A stretch of 64,000 nt of DNA, taken from NCBI RefSeq assembly GCF_900177545.1, contig NZ_FXBQ01000001.1, forward strand, positions 372,001-436,000. Direction: 5' to 3'. Below are positions 31,285 through 37,948 of this stretch, in pieces. The DNA is from Maritimibacter sp. HL-12 (GTDB lineage Bacteria; Pseudomonadota; Alphaproteobacteria; Rhodobacterales; Rhodobacteraceae). Every line of letters starts with the position of its first letter. The stretch's first letter is position 1. A model generated the notes under the pieces. That model worked only from the letters and a program-made list of their open reading frames with translations. It did not search any database and had not been told where the DNA came from. The translations under genes and the position numbers were made by a program.

Positions 31285-32349
31285 TCAGCCAGGCCCGGAG
31301 CGCTCACGCTGCGGCGCCGTTTGCGCGACCGGCGGCGCTTCGGGCGCATCCCGGTGCGCTTCGAGAGTCGCGTCGAAGAAGGTGCATTGCGCCCGCCCGC
31401 GCGATTTGGATGCATAGAGCGCCGCGTCGGCATCGCGCATCATCCGCGCGGCCTCGGGCAGGGCATATTGCGACGAGCGCACAAGCCCGATCGAGGCAGA
31501 AATCTGCGCATGCTGCGTGCCGAAGGGCACCGGCTCCTCAAGTTTCCCGATCATCCGCTCGGCGATGCACAACATCTGCGCTTCGTCGGTTATCCCCTTG
31601 AAAACGATGACGAACTCATCCCCGCCAACGCGCACGACCTCATCCTCGGCCCGGGATTCCTCGCGCAGGATCCGGGCCACCTCGGTGAGCACGAGATCGC
31701 CCGCAGCGTGACCGAGCGTATCGTTGACCTGTTTGAAGAAGTCGAGATCGAGGTGCATGAGGGTGAACGGGGTCTGCCGCGCGATCAGGCGTTCGAGCAC
31801 GTGATCGAGCGCGCGCCGGTTGCTCAGCCCGGTGAGCGTATCGCTGCGCGCTTCGGCCTCGGCCATGGTCTTGGCGCCGTGCAATCGCTCGTTGAGCTTG
31901 CGGCTCTCGGCCATCGCGGCCGACTTGGCCTCGACCAGGTAGAGCATTTCCAGCGTCAGATCTGTGGCGGCGAAATCGGACCCGGCAAGGCCAAACCGCG
32001 CCACCGCGTCGATCACGGCGATGCCGAAGGAAAGGTTGACGAGCACGCCCTGCCCCGCCTGCAACCGCACCGCCGTGCCGATCAACGGCGTGCGCGCCGG
32101 ATCGCGCAGGCGCAGGTGCAGTTTTTTTCCGGCCCGCTCGGTGATCGCGTCGAGGCTCTCGACCCGACGTGGGCGGCGGGCTTCGAACAGGTCGAAGAAG
32201 GCCGCACCGACAACCGGTGCCGCCGGATGGATCTTGTGCACGACCGGCCCGGCATGGGTGACGATGCCGCCCCGGTCGGTGACGACATGCATCGGCATCA
32301 GGATATCGAAGGCATTGGCATCGAGGCATACGTGCGTTTCGCTCTGCAT
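31285..32349 (-). CDS. HNOBA-GGDEF diguanylate cyclase
   Basis: Protein of 354 residues. The N-terminus (about 15-140) resembles the heme-NO-binding-associated (HNOBA) PAS-like domain of guanylate cyclases (MPMHVVTDRGGIVTHAGPVVHKI). A coiled coil follows (about 140-170), then a catalytic GGDEF domain with an intact RVGGDEFVIVF site and an intact inhibitory RxxD (RAED) five residues before it. It should make cyclic-di-GMP. Twenty bases upstream lies the H-NOX-like gene, its probable sensory partner. Confidence 0.87.
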   Translation of the reverse strand: MQSETHVCLDANAFDILMPMHVVTDRGGIVTHAGPVVHKIHPAAPVVGAAFFDLFEARRPRRVESLDAITERAGKKLHLRLRDPARTPLIGTAVRLQAGQGVLVNLSFGIAVIDAVARFGLAGSDFAATDLTLEMLYLVEAKSAAMAESRKLNERLHGAKTMAEAEARSDTLTGLSNRRALDHVLERLIARQTPFTLMHLDLDFFKQVNDTLGHAAGDLVLTEVARILREESRAEDEVVRVGGDEFVIVFKGITDEAQMLCIAERMIGKLEEPVPFGTQHAQISASIGLVRSSQYALPEAARMMRDADAALYASKSRGRAQCTFFDATLEAHRDAPEAPPVAQTAPQRERSGPG

Positions 32350-32369: not shown

Positions 32370-32975
32370 CTAGCCCGCGCGCTGCGCCAGCGCGAAGCCA
32401 CGACCTTCGGTAAAATCTGCCTCCAGAAGACGGATCGCGAGCCGGGCATCGCCCATACCGGCACCGCCCTGCGTGAGTCGCCTCTCCTGCTCGATCACAA
32501 CGAGCGCACCGTAATCATCGGCCATCGCCTGCAAAAGCCCGGTCAGGACCGGCGCAAACTCCGGCGGCGCATCATCGCACCGAAGCAGGTAGTCGCCCGG
32601 GCCACGCTCTTCCAGCACGATGTCAGGCAGCAGCAGGTCGGGCACGGCAAGCCGCACCCGCCCGCTCAGATCTTCCAGCGAGGCCAGGAAACCCTCATAG
32701 TCCACCCCGCCGAACCGCAAGAGCCGGCGCACGCGTTCCGAGGCCGGATGGGTGGCGAGAAAGATGCCGAAGTCTTCCAGCAGGGCCTCGGCGGGCTTGT
32801 CGAGGCGAACCGCCGTATCCGCCAGAAGCTGGGCGGCGAGCCCGTCGTCATAGTGAAACATCGGTTCGAAATGCTCGAGTCCGGCATCGAGGCGCTCGAC
32901 AAGCCCTGCCCAATGCCCCTCTCCGTAGGTGTTGCGCACGAAGCTTTCGAACGCGCAGATGATCAAGCCGTGCAT
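32370..32975 (-). CDS. H-NOX-like protein lacking the heme ligand
   Basis: Protein of 201 residues with the heme-NO/oxygen-binding (HNOB) fold: N-terminal MHGLIICAFESFVRNTYGEGHW and RRLLRFGGVDYEGFLASLEDL. In canonical members the next residues include the heme-ligating His (LDNLHARV type). Here the site reads LEDLSGRV, with Ser in its place. The YxSxR heme-propionate motif also appears lost (LLRCDD). It therefore probably does not bind heme in the usual way. It is cotranscribed with the HNOBA-GGDEF gene. The ATG at 32975 has an AAGGACGG site. Confidence 0.82.
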   Translation of the reverse strand: MHGLIICAFESFVRNTYGEGHWAGLVERLDAGLEHFEPMFHYDDGLAAQLLADTAVRLDKPAEALLEDFGIFLATHPASERVRRLLRFGGVDYEGFLASLEDLSGRVRLAVPDLLLPDIVLEERGPGDYLLRCDDAPPEFAPVLTGLLQAMADDYGALVVIEQERRLTQGGAGMGDARLAIRLLEADFTEGRGFALAQRAG

Positions 32976-33075: not shown

Positions 33076-33783
33076 TCAGCCGGCGTCGAGCCAGCCCGGC
33101 AGGTGGCCGATATCGGGCAGCACCACGTCGGCCAGCGGGGCCAGGTCTGCCGCGCCCGCGGGGCCGCTGAGCACCGCCACAACCTGCATCCCCGCGGCGC
33201 GCCCGGCGATGAGGTCGTGGGTGCTGTCGCCCACCATCACCACGCGGGCGGGCACCAGCCCGGCGGCCTCGGCGAAGGCGAGGCACATGCCGGGCGCGGG
33301 CTTGCCGCCGTGACCACTGTCGTAGCCCGCGATGAAATCGAACATCTGCTCCACCCCCGCCGCCGCAAGATGCGCGCGCGCCGGGGCTTCGGCGTCGTTG
33401 GTCGCCACCCCGAGGCGCAAACCCCGGGCCTTCAGCGCGCCGAGCAAGGCGGTGAGCGGCACCGCCTCGGCCATCGGCGCCCGGGCGGCCTCGGCGTTCA
33501 ACCGGGCCACCACGTCGGAGACCGGCAAGCCGAGCACCGGCACGAGCGCCTGCGCGGTTTGCTCCGGGGTGCCGGCAATCGCCACGGACTCGGGGCGGAA
33601 CGCCCGCGCGGCGAGGTCGAATCCCACCGCATCGGCGAGCGCGGCCCGCAGCGCCATGTCGCCCCCGCCCCAATGGCCGATCAGGGCCTCGACCCAGGCC
33701 ACCCAGGTTGCGTTGAAATCGAACAGGGTGCCGTCCTTGTCGAACAGCACGCCATCGGCACGGCGCTCAGGTCCAGTGGACAT
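33076..33783 (-). CDS. HAD-family phosphatase
   Basis: HAD hydrolase of 235 residues: FDKDGTLFDF nucleophile motif, GVATNDAEAPAR motif II, and MVGDSTHDLIAGRAAG metal site. It resembles phosphoglycolate phosphatase and other small-sugar phosphatases; the substrate is not decided. The ATG at 33783 is preferred over a GTG two codons earlier. Its first codons overlap the end of the DUF3572 gene by 17 bases, so both belong to one leftward unit. Confidence 0.82.
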   Translation of the reverse strand: MSTGPERRADGVLFDKDGTLFDFNATWVAWVEALIGHWGGGDMALRAALADAVGFDLAARAFRPESVAIAGTPEQTAQALVPVLGLPVSDVVARLNAEAARAPMAEAVPLTALLGALKARGLRLGVATNDAEAPARAHLAAAGVEQMFDFIAGYDSGHGGKPAPGMCLAFAEAAGLVPARVVMVGDSTHDLIAGRAAGMQVVAVLSGPAGAADLAPLADVVLPDIGHLPGWLDAG

Positions 33784-34045
33784 CGCCACCCCCGGGAAGT
33801 GCCGCGCGTGCCGTCATCGGCGCGTGGTAGTCGAGCCCGGCGCTGTCGCAGAACGCCGTGACCCAGGCGTCGTCCATGGTGATGAAATCGAGCAGTGCGC
33901 CGAGGAAGGCCGGATCGCGCGCGCCATCGCGCAAGTCGACCTCGCTGGCACCGGAAGCGCCCAGAAACACCGGCAAAAGCTCTTCGTTGGCGGCAATCCA
34001 GGCCAATGCGCGCAGGGCGATTGTTTCGGCGAAATCCGGCGTCAT
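33767..34045 (-). CDS. DUF3572 family protein
   Basis: Small acidic, helical protein of 92 residues (MTPDFAETIALRALAWIAANEELLPVFLG and DLRDGARDPAFLGALLDFITMDD) matching the alphaproteobacterial DUF3572 family of unknown function. The frame is open upstream to 34201, but the Met at 34045 gives the usual family start. It diverges from the PleD-like regulator at 34140 by about 95 bases, a pairing typical of this group of bacteria. No catalytic motif is visible. Confidence 0.8.
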   Translation of the reverse strand: MTPDFAETIALRALAWIAANEELLPVFLGASGASEVDLRDGARDPAFLGALLDFITMDDAWVTAFCDSAGLDYHAPMTARAALPGGGDVHWT

Positions 34046-34139
34046 TGGTATGGGGCTCGCTGTTGGAAACTCTTTGTTAACGATTCTGAGGCATCTCTTA
34101 CCAAACAACCCGCAATTGGACACGCCCGGATCGCAGAAC

Positions 34140-35534
34140 ATGGCAGGTCGCATTCTCATAGCCGATTCGACAGCGACCAACAGGATCGTCCTGAAGGTCA
34201 AGCTCGCCGCGGCGCGTTACCAGACGGTGCAAGCGGTCAGCGGCTCCGAGGCGCTGGCGATCGCCAGGGCCACCCGGCCCGACCTCGTGATCATCGATGC
34301 CCACCTCGCGGAATGCGGCGGTGCCTGCCTCTGCGCGCGGCTCAAGGCCGATCCCGAGACCCGCGCGATCCCGGTTCTGGTGATCGACGGTGCCCCGAGC
34401 CAGAAGGCGCGCCTCGCGGCCCTGCGCGCGGGTGCCGACGACTACCTCGCCAAGCCGCTCGACGAACCGAGCCTGCTGGCCCTCGTGCGCGCGTTGATGC
34501 GCACCCGCGCAACCCACGACGAGCTTGCCCGGAGGCAGAACACCGCCGAGGCGCTCGGTTTTGCCGAGCCGGTCGCCACCTTCACCCGTCAGGCGCAGGT
34601 CACCCTGATCGCGCCGGCCGCCGAAACCGCGCTTGGCTGGCGTCGCGCGCTCGGTGCGCGTCACCCGGCGCAGTTTGCCACCTCGACCCGTACCCAGGCC
34701 CTCGACGCGATCGGCGCAAGCGATGCCTCCGACGCCTTTGTCATCGCCGCCGATCTCGCGCGGCACGGCGACGGGATCGGCCTTGTCAGCGAATTGCGCT
34801 CGCGCGGTGCCACCCGTCATGCCGTGATCATCATCCTGGACGAGGCCAACGCCCCCGGCACCGTGGCCATGGCGCTCGACATCGGCGCCAGCGCGGTCGT
34901 TTCCGGATCGTTCGACGCCGAGGAGATCGCGATTCGCCTTGAAACCCTGCTGGCCCGCAAAAACGAGGCCGACATGCTGCGCAACCGCCTCGATGAACGC
35001 CTCGGCCTCGCCCTGCGAGACCCGCTCACCGGGCTCTACAATCGCCGCTATGGCAATGCCTACCTTGACCGGATGATCACGGGAGCGGCCAAGACCGGCC
35101 AGCCTTTCGCACTGATGCTGCTCGATCTCGACCGGTTCAAGACGGTCAACGACAGCTTTGGCCACGTCGTCGGCGACGAGGTTCTGATCGAGGCCGGCAA
35201 ACGGCTGGGCGAAAACCTGCGCGAAATCGACCTGCTGGCGCGGTACGGCGGCGAGGAATTCGTCATCGCCCTGCCCGAAACCGGGCTCGAAGGTGCCCAG
35301 ATCGCCGCCGAACGGTTGCGCCGGGTGATCGGCGAAACCCCGATCTGCCTCGCGACGCAGGGCGTCGAGGTGCCCGTCACCGTGTCGATCGGTGTCGCGG
35401 TCTACGCAGGCGGCGCACAGGGCGACACCCTGCCCACGCCGCAAAACCTCATCGAACAGGCCGACGCCGCGCTCTATGCCTCCAAGAGCGACGGGCGCAA
35501 CCTCGTGACCTTCGCCGGCGGGCGCGCCGCCTGA
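34140..35534 (+). CDS. pleD: PleD-like response regulator with GGDEF domain
   Basis: Protein of 464 residues with two receiver domains and a diguanylate cyclase. Receiver 1 (1-125) keeps the phospho-acceptor Asp (LVIIDAHL) and the Lys (LAKPL), but its acidic pair is reduced to ADS and the usual Thr is absent (PVLVIDGA). Receiver 2 (about 150-280) is degenerate. The GGDEF domain reads RYGGEEFVIALPE with an intact RxxD inhibitory site (REID). It should make cyclic-di-GMP. The ATG at 34140 is chosen because the receiver begins there. The altered receiver may respond unusually. Confidence 0.87.
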   Translation: MAGRILIADSTATNRIVLKVKLAAARYQTVQAVSGSEALAIARATRPDLVIIDAHLAECGGACLCARLKADPETRAIPVLVIDGAPSQKARLAALRAGADDYLAKPLDEPSLLALVRALMRTRATHDELARRQNTAEALGFAEPVATFTRQAQVTLIAPAAETALGWRRALGARHPAQFATSTRTQALDAIGASDASDAFVIAADLARHGDGIGLVSELRSRGATRHAVIIILDEANAPGTVAMALDIGASAVVSGSFDAEEIAIRLETLLARKNEADMLRNRLDERLGLALRDPLTGLYNRRYGNAYLDRMITGAAKTGQPFALMLLDLDRFKTVNDSFGHVVGDEVLIEAGKRLGENLREIDLLARYGGEEFVIALPETGLEGAQIAAERLRRVIGETPICLATQGVEVPVTVSIGVAVYAGGAQGDTLPTPQNLIEQADAALYASKSDGRNLVTFAGGRAA

Positions 35535-35602: not shown

Positions 35603-36109
35603 TCAGCGCTTGCGGTCGCCGCGCGCCATGCGGTCTTCCATCCGCTCGGCGAAGGCAGACCGCTCTGCCGGGCTCATGCCCGCGAGCACGTCGAGCAGGG
35701 CCGCGCGCCCGGCCTCCACGCGCGCCGACACCCGCGCCTGCTGCGCCGCCATCACCGTCTCCAGCGCCGCACGCTCGAAGGGCTCCGCCTTCAGCGCGGC
35801 GATGATCCGGGCAAACTCGGCTTCCAGCGCGGCCCGGTCGGGCCGGGCGGCCTCGCCCCGCCGCCGCAAGGCCTCGCCGATCTCGCCCCGCGCCTCGTGC
35901 GGCAGGGCGGCAAAGAACGGCGCGAACCCGGTCGAATGCAGCGCGGTGCGGTCGAAACCGGGGCCCCCCGGTGCCCGCCCGTCGCGCAGATGAGCCCCGG
36001 TGATCGCCCCCAGCACCAGAAGGTTCATGACCAGCGAAACCGCCAGCAGCACCTTCGGCCAGCGCCGGGGTCGCTTCGCCGCGTCCTGGGTCGGGAAATC
36101 GTCGCTCAT
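35603..36109 (-). CDS. Spy/CpxP-like periplasmic heavy-metal sensor family protein
   Basis: Protein of 168 residues with one N-terminal membrane segment (VLLAVSLVMNLLVLGAITGAHL, about 20-41) and a long helical, charged periplasmic part with many Arg and Glu, like Spy/CpxP and related sensor proteins. It overlaps the stop of the putative anti-sigma gene by four bases, so it is translationally coupled to it. This places it in the same regulon as the ECF sigma factor. A role in envelope stress sensing is inferred. Confidence 0.75.
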   Translation of the reverse strand: MSDDFPTQDAAKRPRRWPKVLLAVSLVMNLLVLGAITGAHLRDGRAPGGPGFDRTALHSTGFAPFFAALPHEARGEIGEALRRRGEAARPDRAALEAEFARIIAALKAEPFERAALETVMAAQQARVSARVEAGRAALLDVLAGMSPAERSAFAERMEDRMARGDRKR

Positions 36110-36501
36110 TGTCCGCCCTCCTCGTAGAACGCCGCCAATCCGTCATCGGCGGGCAGGATGTCTTCCAGCGCATAGCTCGCGGCACCGTCGGCCAGGAGCA
36201 ACCCGCCCGACAAGGTGTCGAGACGCTCGGGCGAGACGAAACCGAACCAGACCCCGGCGAGCGTGGCCGTTACCAGCCCGGCCAGCGTGGTCCAGCCCCC
36301 CAGGCCATCGACGAACCGCGCCCAGGGTCCGGGCCGTGCCATCGGCCGCGGTGGCCGGTCACGCGCCGCCTGCAGGTTTTCCGCGTCGGCAAGAATGCGC
36401 GCCATCAACCCCGCGGAAGGCTCCGGTGTCTCGGCCCGCGCCGCAGCAAACATCGCGTCGAGCGCGGTGTCATCCAGCTTGTCCGGTTCAGTCTTCGACA
36501 T
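36106..36501 (-). CDS. Putative membrane anti-sigma factor
   Basis: Protein of 131 residues: a short N-terminal acidic cytoplasmic region (DKLDDTALDAMFAAARAE), a single membrane segment near 72-92 (TTLAGLVTATLAGVWFGFV), and a short periplasmic tail. No zinc-binding HxxxCxxC is present, so it is not a ZAS-type factor. It overlaps the ECF sigma gene by 14 bases and the Spy-like gene by four, the usual context of an anti-sigma protein. The ATG at 36501 follows GAGGAG. The function rests mostly on context. Confidence 0.68.
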   Translation of the reverse strand: MSKTEPDKLDDTALDAMFAAARAETPEPSAGLMARILADAENLQAARDRPPRPMARPGPWARFVDGLGGWTTLAGLVTATLAGVWFGFVSPERLDTLSGGLLLADGAASYALEDILPADDGLAAFYEEGGQ

Positions 36502-37075
36502 ATCCCAACTCCTCGCGCCTCTGGCCAAGGCTGGCCGCCAGCGCCCGTTTGCCCCGGGCGATCAGACTCTCGACCGCCTCGACGCTGATTTGCAGAACCT
36601 CCGCGATCTCGGGGTTCGTCCGCCCCTCGATATGGCGCAGCACCACCGCCACGCGCTGGCGCTCCGGCAGGGCCGCGAGCGCCTCGTCGAGCGCGCGCGC
36701 CCGCGCCGCCTGCATCATTTCCGCCAGAGCCCCCGGGCGCTCGTCTTCCGGCTCCGGGATCGTGTCGAGCCCGACGCCCCGGCGGCGGCGCAGCCGATCG
36801 GTGCACAGGTTGGACGTCACCCGGTAGAGCCAGGTGCTGACCTTGGCCTCACCCGGCCGCCACTCCGGCGCGACCCGCCAGAGCCGCAGCATGGCTTCCT
36901 GCGTGACATCCTCGGCCTCGTGCCGGTCGCCGCCCAACATGCGCGCGGCAAAGCCCATCACCCGGGGAGCAAGCCGCACCGTGAGCGCCCGCGCGGCAGT
37001 GCGGTCGCCGTTGCCGAAGGCAACCAGCAGAGCCTCGTCAGATTGCTCGCTCCGGGCGTCGAATGCCATTTTCAT
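36488..37075 (-). CDS. ECF-type RNA polymerase sigma factor
   Basis: Sigma-70 family ECF factor of 195 residues. Region 2 (about 20-90; DRHEAEDVTQEAMLRLWR, TWLYRVTSNLCTDRLRRRR) binds the -10 element. Region 4 (about 135-185; ALPERQRVAVVLRHIEGRTNPEIAEVLQISVEAVESLIARGKRAL) binds the -35 element. The start is the ATG at 37075 after a GGAG; a Met two codons later is possible. It precedes and overlaps its putative anti-sigma. The EF-hand gene lies 88 bases upstream on the same strand. Confidence 0.9.
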   Translation of the reverse strand: MKMAFDARSEQSDEALLVAFGNGDRTAARALTVRLAPRVMGFAARMLGGDRHEAEDVTQEAMLRLWRVAPEWRPGEAKVSTWLYRVTSNLCTDRLRRRRGVGLDTIPEPEDERPGALAEMMQAARARALDEALAALPERQRVAVVLRHIEGRTNPEIAEVLQISVEAVESLIARGKRALAASLGQRREELGYVED

Positions 37076-37163
37076 CACGTCTCCGGCCTAGACCTTCCGC
37101 ATCGACGCGGCAACAGCCAGGCATCCCGGGCGGAGGTGCGTCGCCCGGGCCATATTCGCGGGC

Positions 37164-37730
37164 CTACCAGCGCGACTTGCGGTCTCCACGCGGGCCATCG
37201 CCGCGCTTGCCGAAGCCGCGCTTGCCGCGCCGGTCGCTGATCTCGGCTTTCGCCTCGTCGAATTCGGCAGCGCTGATCGCGTTGTCGTCGTCGGTGTCGA
37301 AGCGGTCGATCATCCGCCCAAAGCCCTTTTCGGGCGCAAGCTCTTCGGGCGAGAGCGCGCCGTCACCATCGCTGTCGCGCGCCTCGATCATCCGCCCGGC
37401 CATTGCCTCGGCCCGCGCGGCGGGATCGCCCCGCATCCGGTCGGAGCGGCCTTCGAAGCGGGCGACGATCTGCGCCGCGATCTCGGCCGCGTCGAGCTTG
37501 CCGTCGCCATCGCCATCGGCATCGGCCAGCCGCGCCGCCGCCCGGGCGGCGAGATCGTCCTCGGTTATGAGGCCGTCGCCGTTTGCATCGAGCGTGGCGA
37601 AGTCAACCGCGAATATCCCTCGCGCGCCGTGCTGGTCAGCCATGCCGCGGGCCAAGACCGGCGTGACCGCCAAGCCCACCGCGGCACTTGCGAGAAGGCC
37701 CAGCCCGGTAATCCTGAGTGCCTGTTTCAT
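37164..37730 (-). CDS. Exported EF-hand calcium-binding protein
   Basis: Protein of 188 residues with a signal peptide (MKQALRITGLGLLASAAVGLA, cut likely near VLARG) and four EF-hand loops: DANGDGLITEDD, DADGDGDGKLDAAE, DSDGDGALSPEE and DTDDDNAISAAE. A basic Arg/Lys/Gly tail follows. It should bind calcium in the periplasm. It is upstream of the ECF sigma group on the same strand, which suggests a calcium- or envelope-linked stress response. The start at 37730 gives the best spacing to GGGAG; a Met two codons upstream is too close. Confidence 0.85.
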   Translation of the reverse strand: MKQALRITGLGLLASAAVGLAVTPVLARGMADQHGARGIFAVDFATLDANGDGLITEDDLAARAAARLADADGDGDGKLDAAEIAAQIVARFEGRSDRMRGDPAARAEAMAGRMIEARDSDGDGALSPEELAPEKGFGRMIDRFDTDDDNAISAAEFDEAKAEISDRRGKRGFGKRGDGPRGDRKSRW

Positions 37731-37948
37731 CTGCATATCTCCCGTTTCTGTATCGCTTGCCCGCTGTTCGGGCGACCGGAAATGCCCCCGATCATGCAAG
37801 TGATACGCAGCGCCGCGCTGTTTCCGTCGCTGGGCAAAATCTGCGACATCTGGACGCACCGGCGATCTGAGCCATATTACCGGGGCCTTTCAATACCTAT
37901 GATCATGGGCACGCGAACAGGACATCGAACGAAAGGTTGGCCCTCATC

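Follow-up and report, generated by a model that had tools for sequence, protein, structure and literature searches.

An H-NOX-like protein from a class in which the heme ligand is not obligatory, and its HNOBA-GGDEF partner in Maritimibacter sp. HL-12

What can an H-NOX-like protein sense, or do, when the residues by which this family holds its heme are gone and the cyclase encoded beside it is intact? The question is raised by a locus of Maritimibacter sp. HL-12, which we analysed within a stretch of 64,000 nucleotides (positions 372,001 to 436,000 of contig NZ_FXBQ01000001.1; referred to as the window). The literature tends to treat such H-NOX proteins as NO sensors by default. An earlier note on this DNA concluded from the missing ligand that the protein cannot be a standard heme-binding detector of NO or O2 and must respond to something else, or serve as a structural adaptor controlling c-di-GMP. 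Here we ask how much of that conclusion can be maintained.

Fold and heme contacts of the window protein

The H-NOX-like gene occupies exactly positions 32370-32975 on the reverse strand and encodes a protein of 201 amino acids. Its Met-His-Gly start at 32975 is conserved. In a Pfam scan residues 2-162 matched the whole HNOB profile with 64.7 bits (cut-off 25.5), and no family besides HNOB was found in the protein; a search against NCBIfam yielded no match at E values up to 1. The best relative of solved structure was Alr2278 of Nostoc (E 9e-12 with phmmer, 5e-30 with a profile of the class described below). An AlphaFold model computed with 69 class members as input had a pLDDT of 89.9 and a pTM of 0.84. 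It superimposed on 2o09 with a Z score of 20.3 and an rmsd of 2.3 over 177 amino acids (Nostoc H-NOX, Z about 20), while for H-NOX crystal structures as a group the Z scores were 17-20 and the rmsd mostly 2.3-3.3 Å over about 180 residues. Foldseek concurred, with a TMq of 0.79 to 3tf8. The whole-domain Pfam match and the structural matches of the model together indicate that the protein adopts a full-length H-NOX fold and is a member of the HNOB/H-NOX fold superfamily.

The residues expected around the heme were not found. In the alignment with Alr2278 the sequence LEDLSGRV of the window protein lies opposite LDNLHARV, which places Ser104 (codon AGC, 32664-32666, reverse strand) in the column of the heme-ligating His, within a helix predicted at residues 93-110. 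Likewise, the heme-propionate motif YxSxR is replaced by CDDAP (residues 133-137; 32565-32579, reverse strand), which aligns with YQSTR of Alr2278. For comparison, canonical H-NOX domains of the same bacterial family, represented by their 30 best scorers, were aligned jointly with the class members. His was present in 30/30 of them, as were Tyr (30/30) and Ser (30/30), and Arg in 29/30, whereas none of the 173 distinct class members possessed the Y-S-R triad. The two absences reported by the earlier note are thus real, and neither the alignments nor the conservation analysis placed another His at the proximal site of the H-NOX fold, which the AlphaFold model and the fold search confirm. The window protein shares the fold, two conserved Gly residues and Pro117 with the canonical NO-sensing proteins of Nostoc (Alr2278), Shewanella oneidensis and S. 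woodyi, but these have the His ligand and YxSxR and the window protein has neither of the two features expected of a heme-binding sensor of NO or O2.

A family-wide class with a variable ligand site

The protein is no local oddity. It is a member of a class that extends throughout the Rhodobacteraceae. Among 394 genomes of the window's family, one per genus, the class profile found a match in 287, a few of which were weakly scoring canonical H-NOX proteins. The named relatives came from Rhodobacteraceae/Paracoccaceae, and among 289 genomes representing the whole taxonomic class strong matches were confined to the window's own family; three genomes from two other families gave weak, canonical-like scores. 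About 45 of the 394 genomes encoded canonical H-NOX proteins with His and YxSxR (L020-L049 among them), in many cases together with a class member. Their PF07700 scores were approximately 95-146 bits versus 60-95 bits for the class. The helix motif HVEVRKLYP was common to many of these canonical proteins (L020-L049).

A ligand-less class as such is not a new idea, since the class, the missing His and the sensing question have all been published (PMC5588039; PMC8738867). Kumar & Spiro (2017) noted that H-NOX of Paracoccus denitrificans, like that of Rhodobacter sphaeroides, lacks the axial His (PMC5588039), and Lee-Lopez & Yukl (2022) described a "group 5" in which fewer than 10% of the proteins have the proximal His, most have Pro and no Cys is conserved; how group 5 proteins sense is stated to be an open question (PMC8738867). 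The class found here is this group 5, and our census agrees with the description. Among the 180 class members extracted (173 distinct rows in the alignment) the ligand residue was Pro in 119, His in 15 (8%), Arg in 11, Gln in 8, Ala in 7, Ser in 7, Asn in 6, Gly in 4, Glu in 2 and Thr in 1. As described for group 5, a conserved Cys is absent and the Gly hinge residues are retained (G70 and G146, both invariant). Within this group the Ser of the window protein is a rare state (7/180).

The ligand residue varied even between close relatives. Seven members from the window's genus had Ser (twice), Arg (three times) and Ala (twice), and its clade-mates had Ser, Arg, Ala, Pro or His. In a tree of 174 rows, built from the H-NOX protein and its partner with the ligand column excluded, at least 11 changes between His and non-His and at least 43 changes between all residue states were needed, counts which do not distinguish loss from gain. 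A more careful tree of 36 rows required 12 changes between His and non-His (bootstrap range 10-13); here the window protein was strongly joined to L019, which also has Ser, and then to two members with Ala. The ligand column came only 102nd of 191 when the 173 distinct rows were ranked by conservation of their columns. Entropies were 2.1, 3.3 and 3.7 bits in the columns that once held Y, S and R. Judged by these alignments the ligand site appears close to unconstrained.

The same cannot be said of the rest of the protein. W22, G70, R87, P117, G146 and A152 were invariant in the 173 distinct rows, and R83, R84, L85, F88, G90, F96, R106, D153, Y155 and G156 were nearly so, as were the motifs RRLLRF and MADDYG. 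R106, only two residues from the ligand site, was Arg in 174/177 class members versus Glu in 27/30 canonical proteins. It is thus the heme contacts, at the ligand site and in the old Y, S and R columns, that have not been conserved, whereas the protein itself has been conserved well. A search of the 173 rows for a replacement ligand (His, Cys, Met, Tyr or Lys) gave no convincing candidate. No His or Cys was conserved throughout; the best were His2 (90%) and His76 (64%), and His76 was no commoner where His104 is absent (100/158) than where it is present (10/15). The only Cys residues of the window protein are Cys7 and Cys133, and Cys occurred at these positions in 2/173 and 89/173 members, respectively. 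Tyr42 (98%) and Tyr155 (99%) were highly conserved.

The partner cyclase and its surroundings

The cyclase gene (31285-32349, reverse strand; 354 amino acids) starts 20 nt downstream of the H-NOX stop codon. The HNOBA match of its product is weak (24.7 bits, barely above the cut-off of 23.4; residues 9-82) and the GGDEF match is strong (137.1 bits). The active-site motif GGDEF (residues 242-246; 31612-31626) and R233 and D236 of the RxxD inhibitory site (I-site; residues 233-236; 31642-31653), all on the reverse strand, were invariant in 40 homologues, which bears out the earlier claim that both sites are intact. In the model of the cyclase (pLDDT 90.4, pTM 0.61) an N-terminal domain of mixed helices and strands is followed by a long helix (131-167) and by a GGDEF domain nearest to those of YfiN/TpbB and PleD. 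With an HNOBA region, an intact active site and an I-site, the partner is predicted to be an HNOBA-GGDEF diguanylate cyclase of the Dgc1/DgcA type.

The pairing of the two genes is strict. An HNOBA-GGDEF gene lay directly downstream of the class H-NOX gene in 178/180 loci, and the remaining two run off their contigs. When the HNOBA half alone was used as query 286 genomes were matched. According to a comparison of the two genome lists by eye, both genes were present in 284/394 genomes, the H-NOX match alone in three (G036, G226 and G293) and HNOBA alone in two (G034 and G117), and the matches in G293 and G117 are at the ends of contigs. The two genes are nearly inseparable. In two genomes the H-NOX frame was interrupted, by one in-frame stop (L194, genome G182) or by a split of the frame (L193, genome G042), with the HNOBA-GGDEF partner still detected; these could be pseudogenes or assembly errors.

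The genome of the window strain contained only four GGDEF domains, so the H-NOX-linked cyclase represents a sizeable part of its repertoire for c-di-GMP synthesis. Two of the four lie within 4 kb, the second belonging to a PleD-like response regulator with a receiver and a GGDEF domain (33858-35534, forward strand), encoded on the opposite strand at a distance of about 0.9 kb, upstream of the H-NOX gene. A gene for a HAD-family phosphatase (33076-33789, reverse strand) precedes the H-NOX gene by 100 nt on the same strand, and co-transcription of these two is possible. In Dinoroseobacter shibae CtrA control has reportedly been found. No CtrA-type site TTAA-N7-TTAA was present within the window with up to one mismatch allowed, so at the level of the motif there is no sign here of control of the D. 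shibae type. Further away, an ECF-type sigma factor, a short open reading frame that may encode an anti-sigma factor and a heavy-metal-resistance protein of the Metal_resist family are encoded in a row (35603-37859, reverse strand). An EF-hand-like protein is located beside this row (37164-37859), and the array resembles a metal or envelope stress module.

Possible modes of action

The explanation that we favour, and regard as rather probable, is that the cyclase has in this protein a dedicated regulatory subunit, most likely an inhibitor, whose input is non-canonical or independent of heme. The H-NOX fold would be independent of an axial His. The protein would bind the cyclase encoded downstream, probably via the HNOBA N-terminal half, and tune c-di-GMP synthesis, most likely downwards. 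The input might be exerted at the protein level, the H-NOX-like protein being an adaptor, or might come from a signal distinct from that of NO at a heme with a His ligand. We prefer this explanation because the ligand site varies freely while the protein and the gene pair are kept, and because the class has no fully conserved His or Cys. A nearly unconstrained ligand site in an almost inseparable gene pair argues for a heme-independent role. That the control may be inhibitory is suggested by work on P. denitrificans, whose H-NOX belongs to the His-less class: too little biofilm is formed when hnoX is mutated and too much when both cyclases are lacking, and in the authors' model H-NOX inhibits DgcA (PMC5588039). 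On the other side, authors working on P. denitrificans still propose NO as the input, and c-di-GMP was not measurable in that organism (PMC12582929).

It might be objected that the protein is a cryptic sensor which binds heme and NO with another ligand (His2, His76, Tyr42 or Tyr155), with none, or with a loosely held heme. The conservation of His2, Tyr42 and Tyr155 would fit this reading, and Pro117, the equivalent of a conserved Pro that contacts the heme in canonical H-NOX, is invariant (100%) in a fold that is predicted to be intact, a point which counts against our own explanation. The organism can probably also produce NO, as its genome has a copper nitrite reductase, NirK (G000:C2:10973-11947, outside the window; 459 bits). 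However, the YxSxR anchor of the propionates is gone, and retention of His was not significantly associated with an NO-producing nitrite reductase, genes for which were found in 5/13 genomes with His and 15/67 others (Fisher p 0.29); the window genome itself has NirK. The remaining argument comes from D. shibae. Genome G041, which we take to be that of D. shibae DFL12, has the same H-NOX/GGDEF pair of the same class, presumably where Dshi_2815 and its neighbour would be expected, and its H-NOX protein lacks YxSxR but has kept the proximal His (LDDLHDRARLAV). If the identification is correct, the D. shibae protein shares its class, its gene pair and the missing YxSxR with the window protein and differs from it in the His. 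The NO-bound form of the D. shibae protein (Dshi_2815) is reported to inhibit Dgc1 (PMC7232146). The protein behind this result is probably one of the few members with His, so the best-studied protein of the class would be no guide to members with Ser or Pro, and its NO response should not simply be extended to them. Altogether we consider a cryptic heme sensor unlikely.

The earlier interpretation stands only in part. The loss of the ligand and the pairing with an intact cyclase hold, but it does not follow that the signal must differ from NO and O2: the sequence is still compatible with heme binding without His, and action through NO is reported for a homologue of the class, albeit one that appears to have His.

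Two further readings carry much less weight. A heme-independent sensor of redox state or metal has a precedent in the apo-H-NOX of Vibrio cholerae, which is heme-free and responds to oxidants through the cysteines of a zinc site (PMC7108781). No conserved Cys zinc site of this type was found: the two Cys residues of the window protein are shared by about half of the class (Cys133) and by almost none of it (Cys7), and the published analysis of group 5 likewise reports no conserved Cys (PMC8738867). Such a mechanism is therefore very unlikely. Alternatively, the protein could be a decaying NO sensor, under relaxed selection after loss of function and on its way to becoming a pseudogene, which might be thought to explain the free drift of the ligand site and the occasional broken copies (in-frame stop in G182, split frame in G042). 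It would leave unexplained the retention of the protein and its partner in about 284/394 sampled genera and the many invariant residues, and for the class as a whole it is refuted by the deletion phenotype in P. denitrificans (PMC5588039). We consider decay very unlikely.

Returning to the regulatory subunit, it is tempting to extend the proposal to the whole family. The H-NOX fold would then be a heme-free, obligatory subunit of one cyclase, a protein or small-molecule signal would have replaced NO, and the scattered His residues would be chance products or relics of a drifting site. We put this forward tentatively and with some doubt. A heme-free domain of H-NOX fold in a cyclase regulator is found in the alpha subunit of soluble guanylate cyclase. 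Alpha-subunit chains (6jt0_A and 8hbe_A) were among the Foldseek matches of the window model, although weaker (TMq approximately 0.48) than the match to 3tf8. The alpha-subunit domain differs from the window protein in that it forms one chain with its cyclase half, and the product is cGMP.
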